Shown here one piece after another: positions 7,041 through 61,779 of a DNA stretch of 64,000 nucleotides. A program made the position numbers and the translations under genes. The notes under the pieces are model-generated. The model searched no databases and had not been told where the DNA came from. It saw nothing but the letters and a program-made list of their open reading frames with translations. Positions within the stretch are counted from its first letter, which is position 1, and each line of letters begins with the position of its first letter. The DNA is from Biomaibacter acetigenes (lineage in GTDB: Bacteria > Bacillota > Thermosediminibacteria > Thermosediminibacterales > Tepidanaerobacteraceae), in assembly GCF_003691585.1 (NCBI RefSeq), contig NZ_CP033169.1:744001-808000 (forward strand). Reading direction: 5' to 3'.

Positions 7041-7182
7041 TTCTTATCTTCCCTTCAAACATAAAGTATTTCCACGGCTTTTATTATACCAGTCAGGTTT
7101 CATGATGTAAACAAGCGGATACGATGCTTGTAATTTATAAAGAAAAATAATACAATAAAAATATGGGGAGAGGAATGCGGAT

Positions 7183-8562
7183 ATGTGGAAATGGAGAATC
7201 GCCACAATTTTAATTATAATCTCGATTGTTATTACCGGCTGCAGTTTACTGCCAACCAAAACAAAAACCACCGCCGTATTGCCTGAACTGCAGCAGCCCC
7301 CGGAAGGTGCGGTATATAATAACGGCAATTTCATCGGGTATTCCGATGCCTCCGATCACGGATATAGCATGGCTATTGTAACTATTGAAAATGATAAAAT
7401 CATGAATGTAATATTAAAGGAATTTACGGAACTTTCTATTGAAAAAGATTTTTCCACCTATGAATATAAACCCTCGGTTAAAGCCCACCAGCAGCTTCCC
7501 CGGAAGTTTATAACAGCCGGTAATTCCCAGGTAGATGGCATCAGCGGCGCTACCGCCAGTTCTATGCGCTACAGGCAGGCGGTGGAACGGGCTCTTTCCA
7601 GTGCTAGAAAACAAAAATCAACTAATATTTATTTTAACGGCACTTTTCAAGGGAGGTCCAAAGCCGACAACCATGGTTATGGAATTGCCCTTGTAAAAAT
7701 ACAGAATGATAAAATTAACGGTGTCGAGATAAAAGAAGTAAATGAAAAGGGCGAGTTGAAGGACTTTAACACATATCCTTACGAGCCTTCCAGAAAAGCT
7801 TACAGGGAAATTCCCGGACAATTTGTAAAGAAAAATTCGCCGGATATAGACAATTTTACCGGTGCCACTCACAGTACCGAAAAATACAGGGAAGCAGTGG
7901 CCAATGCTATGGCTAAGGCAAGGATAATTAAGGAATTGCCGGATTTGATAGATGGCACCTACACTGCGGTTTCCGATGCTGACAACCAGGGATATTCTGA
8001 AGCCGCGGTGACTGTGGAAAATGGTATGATTGTCGATGTGAAACTGAGAGAATACGATGAGCTTTCGACAGAGAAGAATTTTTTTACGTATAGATATGAA
8101 CCTTCCGTAAATGCCAACCGGGAACTGCCCTGGGCGTTTATTTCAGCTCAGTCGCCCCGGGTGGACGCCGTTACGGGGGCCACCCACAGCAGCACTCATT
8201 ACTCTCAGGCTGTAGAAAGGGCACTTGCAAAGGCATCATGGCATAAAAGCCAGCAGAAATATTTTAATGGGGTTTTCCAGGCTAAATCCACCACCGATAA
8301 ACATGGTTACTGTGTTGCCATTGTGAAACTCCAGGATGATAAGATTCAGGATGTTACATTAAAAGATGTCGATGAAAAGGGCCAGTTGAAGGACTTTGAA
8401 AACTACCCATATGAGCCCTCGAAAAGGGCTCATGCCGAACTTCCTGCAAAGTTTGTGAGGTCCAATTCCTATCAGGTGGATGTAGTTACCGGCGCCACCC
8501 ACAGCTCGGAGAAATATAAGGAAGCGGTAAAAAAAGCCCTGGAAAGCGCAACTTTAAGGTAA
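7183..8562 (+). CDS. Lipoprotein with four tandem FMN-binding domains
   Basis: A 459-residue protein exported by a lipoprotein signal (lipobox VITGC near residue 20), so it sits on the outer face of the membrane. The mature part is four FMN-binding domains of exactly 105 residues. Each carries a flavinylation motif [ST]GATxS[ST]: SGATASS at 121, then TGATHST, TGATHSS and TGATHSS at 226, 331 and 436. ApbE-type transferases attach FMN to the Thr in such motifs. Domains 1 and 3 resemble each other, as do 2 and 4, so a two-domain unit was duplicated. By family it is probably an extracytoplasmic electron carrier. No apbE or partner oxidoreductase is in the window. A GGGGAGAGG ribosome site precedes ATG 7183. 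Confidence 0.85.
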   Translation: MWKWRIATILIIISIVITGCSLLPTKTKTTAVLPELQQPPEGAVYNNGNFIGYSDASDHGYSMAIVTIENDKIMNVILKEFTELSIEKDFSTYEYKPSVKAHQQLPRKFITAGNSQVDGISGATASSMRYRQAVERALSSARKQKSTNIYFNGTFQGRSKADNHGYGIALVKIQNDKINGVEIKEVNEKGELKDFNTYPYEPSRKAYREIPGQFVKKNSPDIDNFTGATHSTEKYREAVANAMAKARIIKELPDLIDGTYTAVSDADNQGYSEAAVTVENGMIVDVKLREYDELSTEKNFFTYRYEPSVNANRELPWAFISAQSPRVDAVTGATHSSTHYSQAVERALAKASWHKSQQKYFNGVFQAKSTTDKHGYCVAIVKLQDDKIQDVTLKDVDEKGQLKDFENYPYEPSKRAHAELPAKFVRSNSYQVDVVTGATHSSEKYKEAVKKALESATLR

Positions 8563-8590: not shown

Positions 8591-8621
8591 AAGTCCTCTG
8601 CCTCAGTAAGGCGACTTTTTA
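8591..8621 (+). terminator. Possible terminator after the FMN lipoprotein gene
   Basis: An imperfect stem pairs AAGTC with GACTT and GCCT with AGGC, with an unpaired CTCT on one side, followed by five Ts. It lies between two convergent genes. Confidence 0.4.
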
Positions 8622-36532: not shown

Positions 36533-36609
36533 CGGGGCATAGCGCAGTTTGGTAGCGCACATGGTTTGGGACCATGGAGTCGGGGGTTCAAATCCCTCTG
36601 CCCCGACCA
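36533..36609 (+). tRNA. tRNA-Pro (anticodon TGG)
   Basis: The acceptor CGGGGCA pairs with TGCCCCG; the anticodon stem CATGG/CCATG holds loop TTTGGGA. CCA is encoded. First of seven in the array. Confidence 0.95.
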
Positions 36610-36610
36610 T

Positions 36611-36687
36611 GCGGGAATAGCTCAGCTGGCTAGAGCGTCAGCCTTCCAAGCTGAATGTCGCGGGTTCGAATCCCGTTTCCCGCTCCA
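36611..36687 (+). tRNA. tRNA-Gly (anticodon TCC)
   Basis: The acceptor GCGGGAA pairs with TTCCCGC; the anticodon stem TCAGC/GCTGA holds loop CTTCCAA. CCA is encoded; one base from tRNA-Pro. Confidence 0.95.
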
Positions 36688-36764
36688 GCGCCCGTAGCTC
36701 AGCAGGATAGAGCAACGGACTTCTAATCCGTGGGTCAGAGGTTCGAATCCCCTCGGGCGCGCCA
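36688..36764 (+). tRNA. tRNA-Arg (anticodon TCT)
   Basis: The acceptor GCGCCCG pairs with CGGGCGC; the anticodon stem ACGGA/TCCGT holds loop CTTCTAA. CCA is encoded; it abuts tRNA-Gly with no spacer. Confidence 0.95.
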
Positions 36765-36767
36765 TAT

Positions 36768-36845
<78 letters not shown>

Positions 36846-36856
36846 TAACAGAATTG

Positions 36857-36943
36857 AGAAGTCAGAGGTGAGAGGTCAGAATAGAAGGAATTTGCTTTCG
36901 CAAATTCCAACTTAATCCGACTTCTGATATCTGACATCCGATA
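36857..36943. repeat. Dispersed hairpin repeat, full copy R2, inside the tRNA array
   Basis: It contains a perfect hairpin GGAATTTGC-TTTC-GCAAATTCC. This is flanked on the left by AGAAGTCAGAGGTGAGAGGTCA and on the right by the roughly complementary CTTCTGATATCTGACATC. It matches copies at 42435-42518 and, in part, 14348-14404. It separates tRNA-His from tRNA-Gln. Confidence 0.8.
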
Positions 36944-36944
36944 T

Positions 36945-37018
36945 TGGGGCGTAGCCAAGCGGTAAGGCACGGGACTTTGGATCCTGTATCGTAGGTTCGA
37001 ATCCTGCCGCCCCAGCCA
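36945..37018 (+). tRNA. tRNA-Gln (anticodon TTG)
   Basis: The acceptor TGGGGCG pairs with CGCCCCA; the anticodon stem CGGGA/TCCTG holds loop CTTTGGA. CCA is encoded. It begins two bases after the repeat. Confidence 0.94.
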
Positions 37019-37019
37019 T

Positions 37020-37095
37020 GGGCCATTAGCTCAGGCGGCAGAGCACCTGACTTTTAATCAGGGTGTCGGAGGTTCGAGTCCTCCATGGCTCACCA
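37020..37095 (+). tRNA. tRNA-Lys (anticodon TTT)
   Basis: The acceptor GGGCCAT pairs with ATGGCTC (one G-T); the anticodon stem CCTGA/TCAGG holds loop CTTTTAA. CCA is encoded. Confidence 0.95.
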
Positions 37096-37096
37096 T

Positions 37097-37180
37097 GCGG
37101 GCATGGCGGAACTGGCAGACGCGCCAGACTTAGGATCTGGTGGATTTTCCGTGGAGGTTCAAATCCTCTTGCCCGCACCA
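37097..37180 (+). tRNA. tRNA-Leu (anticodon TAG)
   Basis: The acceptor GCGGGCA pairs with TGCCCGC; the anticodon stem CCAGA/TCTGG holds loop CTTAGGA, and a long variable arm follows, as expected for a class II tRNA. CCA is encoded. Last of the array. Confidence 0.94.
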
Positions 37181-40737: not shown

Positions 40738-42462
40738 GTGAATGTAACTTTGAATCTCTTAAGCCTGATACAAATTTTTTTTGCTGTAGTTATCGGGCTT
40801 TATTTTTTAAATCTGCTCAAAAGCCAGCAGGGAAGCAAGGTGGCGGTAGACAGGGAATCCAGGAAGGAAATGGAAAAGCTCCAGAGGATGCGAGAGATAT
40901 CTCTCACTCAGCCTCTGGCGGAAAAAACACGCCCGGCTTCCTTCGAAGAAATTGTGGGCCAATCTGACGGCCTAAAGGCTCTCAGAGCTGCTCTGTGTGG
41001 TCCAAACCCCCAGCATGTCATAATCTATGGTCCGCCGGGTATAGGAAAAACAGCGGCAGCCAGGCTGGTGTTGGAAGAAGCCAAAAAGACCCCGGGGTCC
41101 CCTTTCAAGCCCGATGCAAAATTTGTGGAAGTGGATGCCACCATCGCCAGGTTTGACGAAAGGGGCATAGCGGACCCTCTAATAGGTTCGGTCCATGATC
41201 CTATATACCAGGGAGCAGGGCCGCTGGGCATAGCGGGCATACCCCAGCCCAAGCCCGGCGCCGTTACAAAGGCTCATGGAGGGGTGCTTTTCATAGATGA
41301 AATAGGTGAGCTTCATCCCATACAGATGAACAAACTCCTGAAGGTGCTGGAAGATCGCAAGGTCTTTCTCGAAAGCGCTTATTACAGCAGCGAGGATACC
41401 AACATCCCCAGGCATATACATGAGATCTTTCAAAATGGCCTGCCTGCAGATTTCCGATTGATAGGTGCCACCACCAGGACTCCTGAGGAAATTCCCCCGG
41501 CCATTCGCTCCAGGTGTCTGGAAATATATTTCCAGCCCCTTTCCCCTGAAGATATAGGCATAATAGCACAAAATGCCGTCAAAAAAATAAACTTTGAAAT
41601 AGATGATCTCTCTCTGAATATCATAAAAAAATACGCTACCAATGGCCGCGAGGCGGTAAACATCATCCAGATGGCGGCGGGCCTGGCCATGACCGAAAAC
41701 AGAAGAAAGCTGGAAGCCAGGGATGTGGAATGGGTCATAAACAGCGGACAGTATCCGCCGAGGCCGGAGAAAAAGATTGGTTCCACGCCCCAGATAGGTC
41801 TTGCCAACGGCCTGGCGGTTTATGGTCCCAACATGGGCACTCTGCTTGAAATCGAAACAACAGCCATCCCTACCCAAAAAGGCCACGGGACTCTTTCGGT
41901 CACCGGAGTTGTAGAAGAAGAGGAGATGGGCGGCAATGTTCATAAACTAAGGAGAAAAGGCACTGCCAGGGGTTCGGTGGACAATGTGATGACGGTATTA
42001 AGGAAATACCTGGGTGTCGACCCAAAGGATTACGATATCCACCTCAATTTACCCGGCGGCATTCCAATTGACGGTCCCTCGGCGGGTGTCACCATAGCCA
42101 CATCAATTTACTCAGCCATCACAAACATTCCGGTGAACAATGAAGTAGCCATGACCGGAGAACTTTCGGTAAGGGGCTATATCAAGCCCATAGGAGGCGT
42201 GGTTCCGAAGATTGAAGCTGCCCGCAGGGCGGGTGTAAAAACCGTTATTATCCCTAAGGAAAACTGGCAGGAAATGTTTAAAACCATAGACTTGAAGATA
42301 ATAGCGGTGGATAGGATCGAGGAAGTAATAGAGCATGCCCTCGTTTCTGCAAAATATAATTCTAATTTTGGTGTAAAGAGTCACTTCCCTGCCGGAGATA
42401 GCCCGGCACCTCCGCTCAGCCTGCCGCTCTCCTCAGAAGCCAGATGCCGGAGGTCGGAATAG
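40738..42462 (+). CDS. lonB: Sporulation-type Lon-like protease LonB
   Basis: 574 residues from GTG 40738. An N-terminal membrane segment (LLSLIQIFFAVVIGLYFL) is followed by an AAA+ domain with GPPGIGKTAAAR (about 98) and VLFIDEIGEL. The Lon protease domain has the Ser-Lys dyad, Ser in DGPSAGVTIA (about 450) and Lys in GGVVPKIEAARRAG (about 493). It lacks the large Lon N-domain, as in Bacillus LonB, which acts in the forespore. The clpX-lonB-lonA order is conserved. The last nine residues (SEARCRRSE) and the stop lie in a dispersed repeat. Confidence 0.93.
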   Translation: MNVTLNLLSLIQIFFAVVIGLYFLNLLKSQQGSKVAVDRESRKEMEKLQRMREISLTQPLAEKTRPASFEEIVGQSDGLKALRAALCGPNPQHVIIYGPPGIGKTAAARLVLEEAKKTPGSPFKPDAKFVEVDATIARFDERGIADPLIGSVHDPIYQGAGPLGIAGIPQPKPGAVTKAHGGVLFIDEIGELHPIQMNKLLKVLEDRKVFLESAYYSSEDTNIPRHIHEIFQNGLPADFRLIGATTRTPEEIPPAIRSRCLEIYFQPLSPEDIGIIAQNAVKKINFEIDDLSLNIIKKYATNGREAVNIIQMAAGLAMTENRRKLEARDVEWVINSGQYPPRPEKKIGSTPQIGLANGLAVYGPNMGTLLEIETTAIPTQKGHGTLSVTGVVEEEEMGGNVHKLRRKGTARGSVDNVMTVLRKYLGVDPKDYDIHLNLPGGIPIDGPSAGVTIATSIYSAITNIPVNNEVAMTGELSVRGYIKPIGGVVPKIEAARRAGVKTVIIPKENWQEMFKTIDLKIIAVDRIEEVIEHALVSAKYNSNFGVKSHFPAGDSPAPPLSLPLSSEARCRRSE

Positions 42463-42518
42463 AAGGAATTTGTGAGCCGCAAATTCTAACTTAATTTGAC
42501 ATCTAGCATCTAATATTT
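42435..42518. repeat. Dispersed hairpin repeat, full copy R3
   Basis: AGAAGCCAGATGCCGGAGGT, then GGAATAGAAGGAATTTG, loop, GCAAATTCTAACTTAATTTG and a right arm near CATCTAGCATCTAATATT. It aligns along its length with R2 (36857-36943). It begins inside lonB and supplies its stop codon. Confidence 0.78.
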
Positions 42519-42592
42519 AGACTAAAGGGGGAGGAATTGAAGAATTTATATAGAATAAATATAGATAGGTTGATTTTGTAGGGGGAATATTT

Positions 42593-44980
42593 GTGATTAA
42601 AAACGAATCAGTTCGCACCATACCTCTGCTGCCCCTTCGGGGTCTATTGGTGTTTCCCAACATGGTGCTTCATTTTGATGTAGGACGGGACAAATCCATA
42701 GGCGCTCTGGAAGAAGCCATGGTGATGGACCAGAAGATCCTGCTGGTGGCTCAAAAAGACGCAAAAACGGATTTTCCCGATAAGGATGAAATATATACCG
42801 TCGGAACGGTAGCCAAAATCAAGCAGCTTTTGAAAATGCCGCAGGATACTATAAGAGTATTGATAGAAGGCCTTAACAGGGCAGTGATAAAAGAATATAT
42901 TCAAACAGAACCTTTTTTCAAAGTCAGGGTTGAAGAAATATTTGAAGGGAATGAAAAAGCCACCCCGGAAGAAGAGGCTTTGATGAGAAGCGTCATGAGC
43001 CTTTTTGAACGCTACATGGACATCACCAGAAAGCTACCCCCGGACGTAATTGTTTCGTTGGCCGGTATAACAAACCCCGGTCGTTTTGCCGACACGGTGG
43101 CATCGCAGCTTGCCATCAAAACCGAGGACAAACAAAAGATTCTCGAAACCCTTTCTTTTAAAAAAAGGTTGGAATTGTTATTTCAAATGATATCTCAGGA
43201 GATTGAAATTCTGGAAATTGAAAGAAGGATAAACAACCGGGTTAAAAAGCAAATGGAAAAATCCCAGAAAGAATATTATCTTAGAGAGCAAATGAAGGCC
43301 ATACAAAAGGAACTGGGCCAGCAGGATGAGAGGACCATAGAAGCAGATGAATACAGGGAAAAGATAAAAGTCCTGGGACTTTCCGAGAAACTTGCAGAAA
43401 AGATGCTTAAGGAAGTAAACCGCATGGAAAAAATGCCTCCTGGTTCTGCCGAAGTTTCCGTTATAAGGACATATCTTGACTGGCTTGTTTCTCTACCCTG
43501 GAACATTCTTACCGAAGATAGTATGGATATAAAAGCCGCGGAAAATATATTGAACCAGGAACACTACGGCCTTGAAAAAGTAAAGGAACGTATTCTTGAA
43601 TTCCTGGCCGTGAGAAAGCTTTCCGGCAGGATTAAAGGACCCATTTTATGTCTGGTAGGTCCTCCGGGAGTTGGGAAAACATCCCTGGCCAGGTCCATTG
43701 CAAGAGCCATGAACCGGAAATTTGTGAGGGTTTCCCTGGGTGGCGTGAGGGATGAAGCGGAGATTAGAGGTCACAGAAGGACATATGTAGGAGCATTGCC
43801 CGGAAGGATTATCCAGGGCATGAAACAGGCAGGTTCAAGAAATCCTGTATTTTTGCTGGATGAGATAGATAAGATGAGCGCCGATTTTCGTGGCGATCCG
43901 TCGGCGGCTCTTTTGGAAGTGCTGGACCCGGAGCAAAATAACAGTTTTTCCGACCATTATATAGAACTGCCTTTTGATTTATCCAGGGTGCTGTTTATCA
44001 CTACAGCCAACACCCTTTATAACATTCCTAGACCTCTTCTTGACCGCATGGAAGTAGTGACTATTCCGGGATATACGGAGGATGAGAAACTGGAAATTGC
44101 AAAAAGGCACCTCATTCCAAAACAATTGAAGGAGCATGGTCTTACTCAGGAAAAAATCACCTTCACCCATGATGGCTTGTTGAAAATCATTCGTAACTAT
44201 ACCCGGGAAGCCGGCGTGAGAAATCTTGAGCGGGAAATTGCCAATATATGCCGTAAAGTGGCAAAAGCCATAGTTGAAGGGGAAAAAACCTCCGTGGATG
44301 TGGCCTCAGCTATGGTGGAGAAGTTCCTTGGAGGGCCGAGATTTCATTACGGTGTCCTGGAAAAACAGGACCTGGTAGGGGTTGCCACAGGTCTTGCCTG
44401 GACTGAAGTGGGAGGAGACATCCTCAGCATTGAAGTAACGGTGATGAAAGGCAAGGGCAAATTGATACTCACCGGAAAACTGGGAGATGTGATGCAGGAA
44501 TCCGCCCATGCAGGTTACAGCTATGTAAGGTCCAGGGTTGAAGAACTCAATATAGAAGAGGACTTCCATGAAAAATACGATATTCATATTCATGTTCCTG
44601 AAGGAGCCATACCCAAAGATGGACCGTCGGCAGGCATTACCATGGCCTGTGCGTTGATTTCGGCACTGTCGGGGAAACCGGTGGACAGGACCGTGGCCAT
44701 GACCGGAGAGATAACCCTTCGCGGCCGGGTTTTGCCGGTGGGAGGCATAAAAGAAAAGGTGCTGGCAGCTCACAGGGCGGGTATCAAGACCGTAATACTT
44801 CCCGAAGAAAACACCAAGGACCTGGAAGAAGTACCCCAGCATGTCAAGGATGATCTTTGCTTTATTTTCGTGAACAACATGGATGAAGTGGTGGAAAAGG
44901 CCTTAAAAAATGTACCCCAAAAACATATTCCCACCATGGAAAAAACCGATGACCACCAGGTAAACATATACCCTTCTTAG
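42593..44980 (+). CDS. lon: ATP-dependent protease Lon (LonA)
   Basis: 795 residues from GTG 42593 behind a GGGGGAA site. The N-terminal LON substrate domain starts [21 protein letters not shown] coiled coil spans about 190-255, and the AAA+ module has Walker [14 protein letters not shown] (about 357) and [10 protein letters not shown]. The protease dyad is Ser in [11 protein letters not shown] (about 679) and Lys in [14 protein letters not shown] (about 722). It degrades damaged and regulatory proteins. No CIRCE or CtsR box is seen upstream. Confidence 0.97.
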
Positions 44981-59164: not shown

Positions 59165-61779
59165 ATGCATGTGGTCGAGATGACCGTAAAGCCGAACAAA
59201 GCAGAGATTCTGAGGAATCTGGGTTATAAGGATATAAAAAAAGTCCCTGGGGATGTTCATGCGGAAGTGGAAAAAGCTCTGGAGGAATCATCAAGTTTGA
59301 TTTCACCAAAGGTATGTTATGAGAATTTCAACTTTACCGTCGATAAAGTGCGAAAAAAATCCTTCTTTCGGGAGGAAACTATTTTTCCGGCGATTATATA
59401 GTAAAAAATCTTTCGAGTGCCGATTATATTACGGTAGCCATAACCACTCTGGGCCCCGGAATAGATGAGAAATCCGCCTCATATTTTCAGGCAGGAGATT
59501 ATATGCGGGGCATGATATTTGACTGTATAGGCAGTTCTGCTTTAAATGCATTAAACCGTCTTTTCTGGCTGGAACTTGTCAAGAAAGTTAAAGAATCCGG
59601 AAACGGCATTACCCACCGCCTTTCCCCGGGGCACAACGATTGGGACATAAAAGACCAGGCCACGGTGTTTAAACTGCTGGACGATGGTTCCATCGGTGTC
59701 ACCCTTAATGACAGCTTTATGATGAACCCTGTAAAATCTCTGAGCGTAGTTTACGGAATAGGAAAGGGTTTGGAAATTTCCACCGTGGACCATGATTGTA
59801 TCGACTGTGAATTGGAAGATTGCACTTACAGGCTAATGCCCAGGAAACAGCATCACGTTCAAGTCGTAATAAACGGACAGATAAGAGAAATTACAGTATC
59901 TCACGGTGCGAATCTTTTTTTTGCCCTTCTGGAAAACGGCATCCATGTGCCCAATGCCTGTGGAGGCAAGCGGACCTGCGGAAAATGCAAAGTGAGGATA
60001 GAAGGTCTAAAAGACATCGATTTAAGTCCGGAAGAGCAAAAACTTTTGTCGTCCGACGCAAAAGGACAGGGTTTTCGCCTGGCCTGTTTTACTGCGGTGG
60101 ATCAGAATATAAAGGTATATATCCCTGAAGACAGCAACAAAGCCGTCATACTTACGGAAGGGGAAAAGGAACAAAATATCATAAAATCATTGAACCCCCG
60201 CATCAAAAAAGTAGCGATGGACCTTCCGCTTCCGTCGCTGGAAGACCAGAGGGATGATGTTACAAGGCTTATCCGAGGTTTAACGGTCACAACTTCCGAC
60301 TCTGCTGCAAGTTTAGAACCTGAAGTTTCCGATATAGAAAATTCAATAGTTTCGGCAAGTTATGATAAAATAAAGATACCCCTTCAATTATTATCAAAAA
60401 TCCCGGAAATTCTTAAGGGAAATAAATACAAGGTTTCTTGTGTAATACGGCAAAATTTAGATAATTCATCTTTAATTGAGGATAAAAGCTCTTACGAAAT
60501 AATTTCAGTAGAAGAATCCAAGAGCGCCGATAAATTCTTCGGCATCGCAGTAGACATTGGAACCACCACCATTGCGGCATATCTTTACGATATAAAATCC
60601 ACCAGGAAGATAGATATTGCTTCATCGTTAAATCCTCAGAGAATTTACGGAGCAGACGTCATTACCAGGATAAACCATACGATGGAAGATGATAAAGGTC
60701 TAAAGCAGCTACAGAAACTTATAATAGCTGAATTGAACGACATCATAACTAAATTTTGTAAGAAAAACGGATTATCGCCCCGGCATATCTATGAGTTAAC
60801 TGCGGTGGGCAATACCACCATGATGCACCTGTTTTTAGGCATTCCCTGCAAGAACATAGCCAATGCCCCTTACATCCCTGCCTTTACCGATAAAACCGAA
60901 ACCAAAGCCCGGGAACTGGGAATAAACATAAATCCCGAGGGTTACATCATTACCCTCCCCATGGTTTCCAGCTATGTGGGAGCCGATACCGTGGCTGCGG
61001 TCCTGGCCAGCCGTATGTATGAAAAAGAGGAAATAGGACTGCTTTTGGACATAGGCACCAACGGTGAAATAGTCCTGGGTAATAGAGAGAAGTTACTGGC
61101 CTGCTCTGCTGCCGCCGGTCCTGCCTTCGAAGGCGCCGGGATAACCTTCGGCATAGGTGGAGTGGTGGGAGCCATAGACCATGTAGATTTTGGCAAGAAT
61201 CCAATATATACCACCATCGGAGGCGCTCCTCCGGTAGGACTATGCGGCTCGGGAGTCGTAGATGCCATTGCCCAGCTTGTAAAATGGGGAATATTGGAAG
61301 AGACCGGGAAGGTGAAACAAGAGGATGAGATCGAGGGCCAAATTCCTCCCGAAATCCTTGCAAGAATTACCGATTATAAAGACAAGAGGGCTTTTCTGCT
61401 GGATGAAAGAACCGGCATATACCTTACCCAGCAGGATGTGAGGCAGATACAGCTGGCAAAAGGAGCTATATATGCTGGGATAAAGATACTCATGAACCAT
61501 ATGGGCATTACGCCCGGTCAAATAAATAGGGTCTACTTTGCAGGAGGTTTCGGCAACTATATAAGTGTGGAAAGTGCGGTTACCATAGGCCTTATTCCCA
61601 AGGAATTGAAGCATAAAGTTTCTCAGATAGGCAATGCGGCCGGCACGGGCGCTATCATGGCCCTGCTTTCCGATGATGAGCTCAAGATTGCAAACGACAT
61701 AAAAAACAGGATAAAATATATTGAACTATCTGCTGAGTCGTCTTTCCAGGAAGAGTTTATGGGAGCAATGTATTTTTGA
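59165..61779 (+). pseudogene. Corrinoid reductive-activation protein: MetH-activation-like + 2Fe-2S + ASKHA ATPase, one-base frameshift
   Basis: ATG 59165 follows GAGGTG. The first frame reads to VRKK, then slips and stops at 59401. The family sequence continues as ILLSGGNYFSGDYIVKNL in the next frame. One A seems missing from the A7 at 59353-59359. Domains when joined (about 870 residues): MetH activation-like (LSPGHNDWDIKDQA, IGVTLNDSFMMNPVKSLSVV), a plant-type ferredoxin (CGGKRTCGKC plus a later C; 59960-60090) and a RACo-type ASKHA domain (AVDIGTTTIAAYLYD, LLDIGTNGEIVLG, GGAPPVGLCGSGVVDAI). It would use ATP and low-potential electrons to return Co(II) to Co(I). 98% of the gene is open, so activity depends on whether the frameshift is real. 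Confidence 0.85.

Follow-up and report, generated by a model that had tools for sequence, protein, structure and literature searches.

A four-domain FMN_bind lipoprotein of Biomaibacter acetigenes with an ABAB repeat history and a candidate NDH-2/DoxX electron donor

The genome of Biomaibacter acetigenes encodes a predicted lipoprotein of 459 residues in which four FMN_bind domains of two diverged types follow one another in the order A-B-A-B. Its gene lies in a stretch of 64,000 nucleotides, hence termed the window (positions 744001–808000 of the 3.40-Mb, single-contig genome), and across the family it co-occurs with an intact membrane NADH dehydrogenase, NDH-2/DoxX. We consider it probable that this protein, which arose by duplication of an AB unit, is loaded with several FMN by ApbE and acts as a PplA-type extracytosolic electron carrier fed by NDH-2/DoxX.

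The gene (window positions 7183..8562, forward strand, as are all its features below) was taken from the open reading frame list and its translation and begins with ATG. A likely ribosome-binding site read from the sequence, GGGGAGAGG (7165..7173), is situated 9 nt 5' of the start codon. Both the weak promoter-like TTGTAA-17-TACAAT (7128..7156) and the terminator-like stem of five pairs 3' of the gene (8599..8613) belong to patterns whose counts are no higher than chance. The Rfam search found no family close to the gene and only tRNAs in the rest of the window, where seven tRNA genes form a row (36533–37177). The window also holds two adjoining Lon-domain genes (40738–44980), one combining Lon_C with an AAA/ChlI part and the other a full Lon, and a gene for a RACo-type activator of corrinoid proteins whose N-terminal part contains a 2Fe-2S domain (59503–61779).

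By inspection, residues 1–20 form a lipoprotein signal peptide (7183..7242) with a hydrophobic N-terminus and the lipobox ITGC at residues 17–20; a preliminary description of this DNA likewise called the protein a lipoprotein. Cys20, the predicted lipid-bearing residue, is invariant in the four-row orthologue alignment A1. The Pfam search placed FMN_bind (PF04205) on four stretches of the protein (E 2e-34); a THR4_C match (30 bits, one stretch across a motif helix) and weak NCBIfam matches were judged spurious. According to the HMM boundaries and the domain tree, domains 1 and 3 are of A type (residues 47–145, 7321..7617, and 257–355, 7951..8247) and domains 2 and 4 of B type (residues 152–250, 7636..7932, and 362–459, 8266..8559). 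Each contains one flavinylation motif: SGATASS starting at residue 121 (7543..7563), TGATHST at 226 (7858..7878), TGATHSS at 331 (8173..8193) and TGATHSS at 436 (8488..8508). The four domains and intact motifs of the preliminary description are thus confirmed, but its exact 105-residue repeats are exact only in spacing, which is 105 residues throughout this protein and also in the five other orthologues; in sequence the domains are 43–56% identical without gaps.

The FMN-bearing residue occupies motif position 4 in the alignment with CPE2226 (PDB 3o6u) and in the structures of PMC10339131, so the attachment residues are predicted to be Thr124, Thr229, Thr334 and Thr439. They are kept in 24 of 24 domains of the six orthologues, whose proteins share 61–78% identity; among named records, relatives occur in Thermoanaerobacterales MAG AS04akNAM_31, in Tepidanaerobacter sp. 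GT38 and in a Bacillota MAG. This conservation, together with the role of the motif Thr as attachment site in solved relatives (PMC10339131), argues against an alternative in which some or none of the sites are loaded and the protein is an FMN_bind lipoprotein of another role with the repeats as spacers. The flavin load is a prediction from sequence, and motif 1 starts with Ala in the orthologues of two genomes, which speaks for that alternative; we regard it as very unlikely. A variant motif, TKATGS, with Lys replacing the motif Gly, occupies both sites of two-domain FMN_bind proteins whose genes lie next to those of ApbE and NDH-2/DoxX at two other loci (L097, 7324–8013; L158, 8443–9132). 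KAT variants were found in genomes G046 and G281 too, and the ApbE motif may tolerate Lys in the Gly position.

The history of the repeats can be read from the domains themselves. Ungapped identity is 56% between domains 2 and 4 and 49.5% between domains 1 and 3, and lower for the pairs 1-4 (46%), 1-2 (44%), 2-3 (43%) and 3-4 (43%). In a tree of the 24 domains of the six orthologues with outgroups (support given as SH-aLRT/UFBoot), the first and third domains group at 96/96, and the second and fourth group with the second (B) domain of the two-domain relative in G046 at 94/85. Each domain is coherent across the orthologues, the fourth being the weakest (81/76). These pairings indicate that the ABAB order is real, and they agree with the closer pairs and the block duplication noticed earlier. 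The whole AB block of a two-domain ancestor was thus duplicated prior to the split of the genera.

Nearly all relatives examined in the phylum have two domains. Four-domain proteins elsewhere were found in G355, as two tandem genes, and in G114, where a fifth motif accompanies the four domains detected. In a tree of 79 domains, the first and third domains of the second G355 gene group at 99/100 and its second and fourth at 98/100, and the first and third domains of the G114 protein at 98/100; the AB block was therefore doubled in a second lineage too. The D1+D3 and D2+D4 groups of the orthologues are not exclusive clades in this larger tree, since they are interspersed with domains from two-domain proteins; the intermixing, on a weak backbone, is compatible with an ancient AB pair. 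At locus L141 (8842–11976), two adjoining genes each encode a four-domain ABAB FMN_bind protein, and in the second, domain 1 is almost the same as domain 3 and domain 2 as domain 4, which points to a recent block duplication. An FMN_bind protein of 588 aa at locus L147 (8684–10450) has one motif on top of ABAB, five in all, and such an odd count is rare in the group. The AB unit as a building block is a new observation. We speculate, as a quite improbable extension, that the A-B module could be both the functional and the structural unit, with A and B flavins in different environments, and that growth by AB blocks in separate lineages could give alternating flavin sites with graded potentials, a conduit dedicated to the NDH-2/DoxX donor.

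One of the four domains is odd. In the six orthologues the residue preceding the conserved Gly-Tyr is His in domains 1, 2 and 4, and Gln, Lys or Leu in domain 3 (Gln269 in B. acetigenes). The His corresponds to that of the DHGY motif of CPE2226 in the alignment to 3o6u, and in CPE2226 the residue His44 sits where SaFMN3 has its flavin-stacking Tyr (PMC10339131). Since domain 3 lacks His at this presumed flavin-stacking position, a feature newly described here from the alignments, its flavin environment may differ, and the flavin may be held differently from those of the other domains.

The structure models were built on shallow alignments (8 and 4 rows). The two-domain AB model is confident, with pLDDT 91 and pTM 0.78; the full-length model, with pLDDT 66 and pTM 0.33, is not confident. 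Both contain domains of the beta3-alpha2 fold and match 3o6u at Z ~12 and 8p2a/8p2b at Z 8.7–11.9. Among solved relatives, CPE2226 of Clostridium perfringens is the closest both in sequence (9e-5) and in fold (Z 12, rmsd 2.1–2.2 over 101 residues) and shares the DHGY and TGAT motifs, but it is a single-domain protein solved without flavin, against four domains here. Alignments of the AB model to single-domain structures run from residues 2–5 to 203–207, a span suggestive of a last helix supplied by the other repeat. Domain 2 of the full-length model, however, aligns alone to 8p2a (151–246), which is at odds with such a swap. With the two models in disagreement and their alignments shallow, a swapped-helix AB unit is not claimed. 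MHC-like structure matches (Z ~3) were dismissed as a common arrangement.

The preliminary description placed the partners of the protein elsewhere in the genome and hinged on the presence of an apbE gene there. The only ApbE (2110889–2111725, E 4e-96), with a lipoprotein-type N-terminus, is indeed encoded ~1.36 Mb away, and its gene is divergent from that of a 574-aa NDH-2 that has DoxX/DoxD as its C-terminal domain, from whose match the transmembrane part of NDH-2/DoxX is predicted. The genome thus has an NADH dehydrogenase within a flavinylation gene cluster as defined in PMC8238504, and the four-domain gene stands 1.36 Mb outside that cluster. At the orthologous loci read, no redox partner was recognised beside the four-domain gene, which stands alone there. 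A 740-aa oxidoreductase-like gene lies upstream of the orthologue at locus L049.

Also encoded in the genome are a complete Rnf operon, whose RnfG is an FMN_bind protein, and a separate two-domain PplA-like lipoprotein of 281 aa (NF041941, E 3e-58, below the cut-off). Menaquinone synthesis was traced by UbiA only, with two matches, and a search of the genome for the cytochrome c assembly protein PF01578 found none. Genes for NusG_II and Hpre_diP_synt_I, which we take to be EetA and EetB, adjoin each other beside maf and cell-shape genes; this pair says little about partners, given its maf and cell-shape setting and the presence of each also in two control genomes.

The link to NDH-2/DoxX, new for this multi-flavin protein, comes from the distribution of the genes. 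Within the family (13 genomes, including that of B. acetigenes), six genomes have the four-domain gene and the same six have an intact NDH-2/DoxX. The other seven have no four-domain gene, and NDH-2/DoxX is absent from six of them and broken in the seventh, G009; each has one FMN_bind match and at most one ApbE above the cut-off. With genomes as units and kinship uncorrected, the Fisher p is 0.0006 for intact copies only and 0.004 if the broken copy is counted; with genera as units (three versus four) it is 0.03 or 0.11, respectively, so the co-occurrence at the family level is suggestive, not decisive. The broken copy in G009, a genome 68% complete, is in three open pieces with ~66 residues lost (L106, 4922–6586), by either decay or an assembly error. 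In G001, a close relative within the family, a second ApbE is encoded next to a single-domain FMN_bind membrane protein and a gene resembling FAD-dependent oxidoreductases (L108, 5086–8113). In sister-family genomes NDH-2/DoxX is found near a PplA-like gene, and G013 adds UbiA-type and polyprenyl synthase genes.

A sample of 398 genomes of the phylum extends this picture. The A1 profile identifies relatives in 48 genomes, and full-length NDH-2/DoxX is present in 31; the two coincide in 10 genomes against 3.7 expected (p 0.0016, or 0.012 without the own genus). In five genomes from three families (G026, G171, G294, G317, G338) a two-domain relative and NDH-2/DoxX are divergent neighbours, 394–573 bp apart, and the clusters of G026 and G317 include also ApbE, a Gx transporter, a polyprenyl synthase and UbiA. 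This adjacency is the evidence that we weigh most for the NDH-2/DoxX link. Relatives lie near ApbE in G046 and G125. As 38 of the 48 relatives belong to genomes lacking full-length NDH-2/DoxX, and some of the relatives adjoin Rnf genes, other donors would serve the wider group.

These observations make extracellular electron transfer, proposed in the preliminary description, the best-supported context for the protein, with the donor and acceptor as well as its picture of a flavin wire remaining at the level of proposals. Following export, the predicted lipid on Cys20 would tether the protein to the cytoplasmic membrane on its outer side, where the sole ApbE would load up to four FMN onto Thr124, Thr229, Thr334 and Thr439. 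NADH would be oxidised by the NDH-2/DoxX membrane protein, probably through quinone, and the electrons would pass via the two-domain PplA-like lipoprotein, directly to the four-FMN protein, or by both routes, and finally to an acceptor outside the cell. The step from NDH-2 to a lipoprotein is modelled on lactic acid bacteria, where iron reduction needs Ndh2 and PplA (PMC8837199). The flavinylated protein could instead receive its electrons from Rnf via RnfG, in a ferredoxin-driven extracytosolic reduction. The Rnf operon of the genome, the relatives that adjoin Rnf operons in G281 and G076, and the multi-flavinylated RnfGs among published proteins (PMC8238504) would fit such a route; however, of the 22 order-level genomes 21 have an RnfG-like FMN_bind match, among them ones that lack the four-domain gene, and the distribution of that gene follows NDH-2/DoxX rather than Rnf. 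We consider the Rnf route unlikely.

Multi-flavinylated proteins are an established class, with 2081 proteins in 1530 genomes and up to 13 sites (Meheust 2021, PMC8238504). The B. acetigenes protein shares with them several FMN_bind domains, [S/T]GA[S/T] in each, an extracytosolic signal (by inspection) and an ApbE in the genome, and it differs in the position of its gene outside a flavinylation gene cluster and in the ABAB order of two diverged domain types. Like PplA (NCBIfam NF041941) it is a lipoprotein with tandem FMN_bind domains proposed to act with NDH-2 and ApbE, but PplA has two domains and a separate PplA-like protein is encoded in the same genome. Direct identity with PplA (67.4 bits against the curated cut-off of 325 for NF041941) or with RnfG (32.5 bits against 102 for TIGR01947) was rejected.

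Purified proteins with three and four FMN_bind domains bear covalent FMN; the four-domain one was co-expressed with ApbE before its purification (PMC10339131). The latter, CbFMN4 of a Clostridiaceae bacterium (Tong 2023, PMC10339131; PDB 8p2b, domain 1), resembles our protein in its four FMN_bind domains, its membrane-anchored N-terminus and the beta3-alpha2 fold of its domain 1 (Z 8.7–9.1). It has flexible linkers and a flanking flavin transferase gene, in contrast to linkers of a few residues and no ApbE nearby in B. acetigenes. A comparison with such proteins also bears on the possibility of an electron store or a terminal reductase acting on ferric chelates or another soluble acceptor, with four similar flavins holding up to 8 electrons. 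SaFMN3, with three covalent FMNs, has a single potential of -184 mV (PMC10339131) and hence no downhill path, and published models of multi-flavin proteins often have a beads-on-a-string form (PMC11334425). In SaFMN3 and CbFMN4, though, the domains are >80% identical within each protein (PMC10339131), against 43–56% here, and domain 3 here lacks the His of the others, so the four flavins need not be equivalent. A store or reductase is possible but seems to us doubtful.

The protein is a well-supported addition to the multi-flavin proteins, one of which is now tied to a specific donor candidate, NDH-2/DoxX. Published surveys of the class by PMC8238504 and PMC11334425 give the frame for this link. 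This link rests on co-occurrence and on the adjacency of relatives, in a genome without a detected cytochrome c assembly protein. Its unusual third domain marks a specific site at which unequal flavin potentials could be sought, and the four-domain protein as a whole is well suited to testing whether flavins in tandem serve as conduit, store or reductase.
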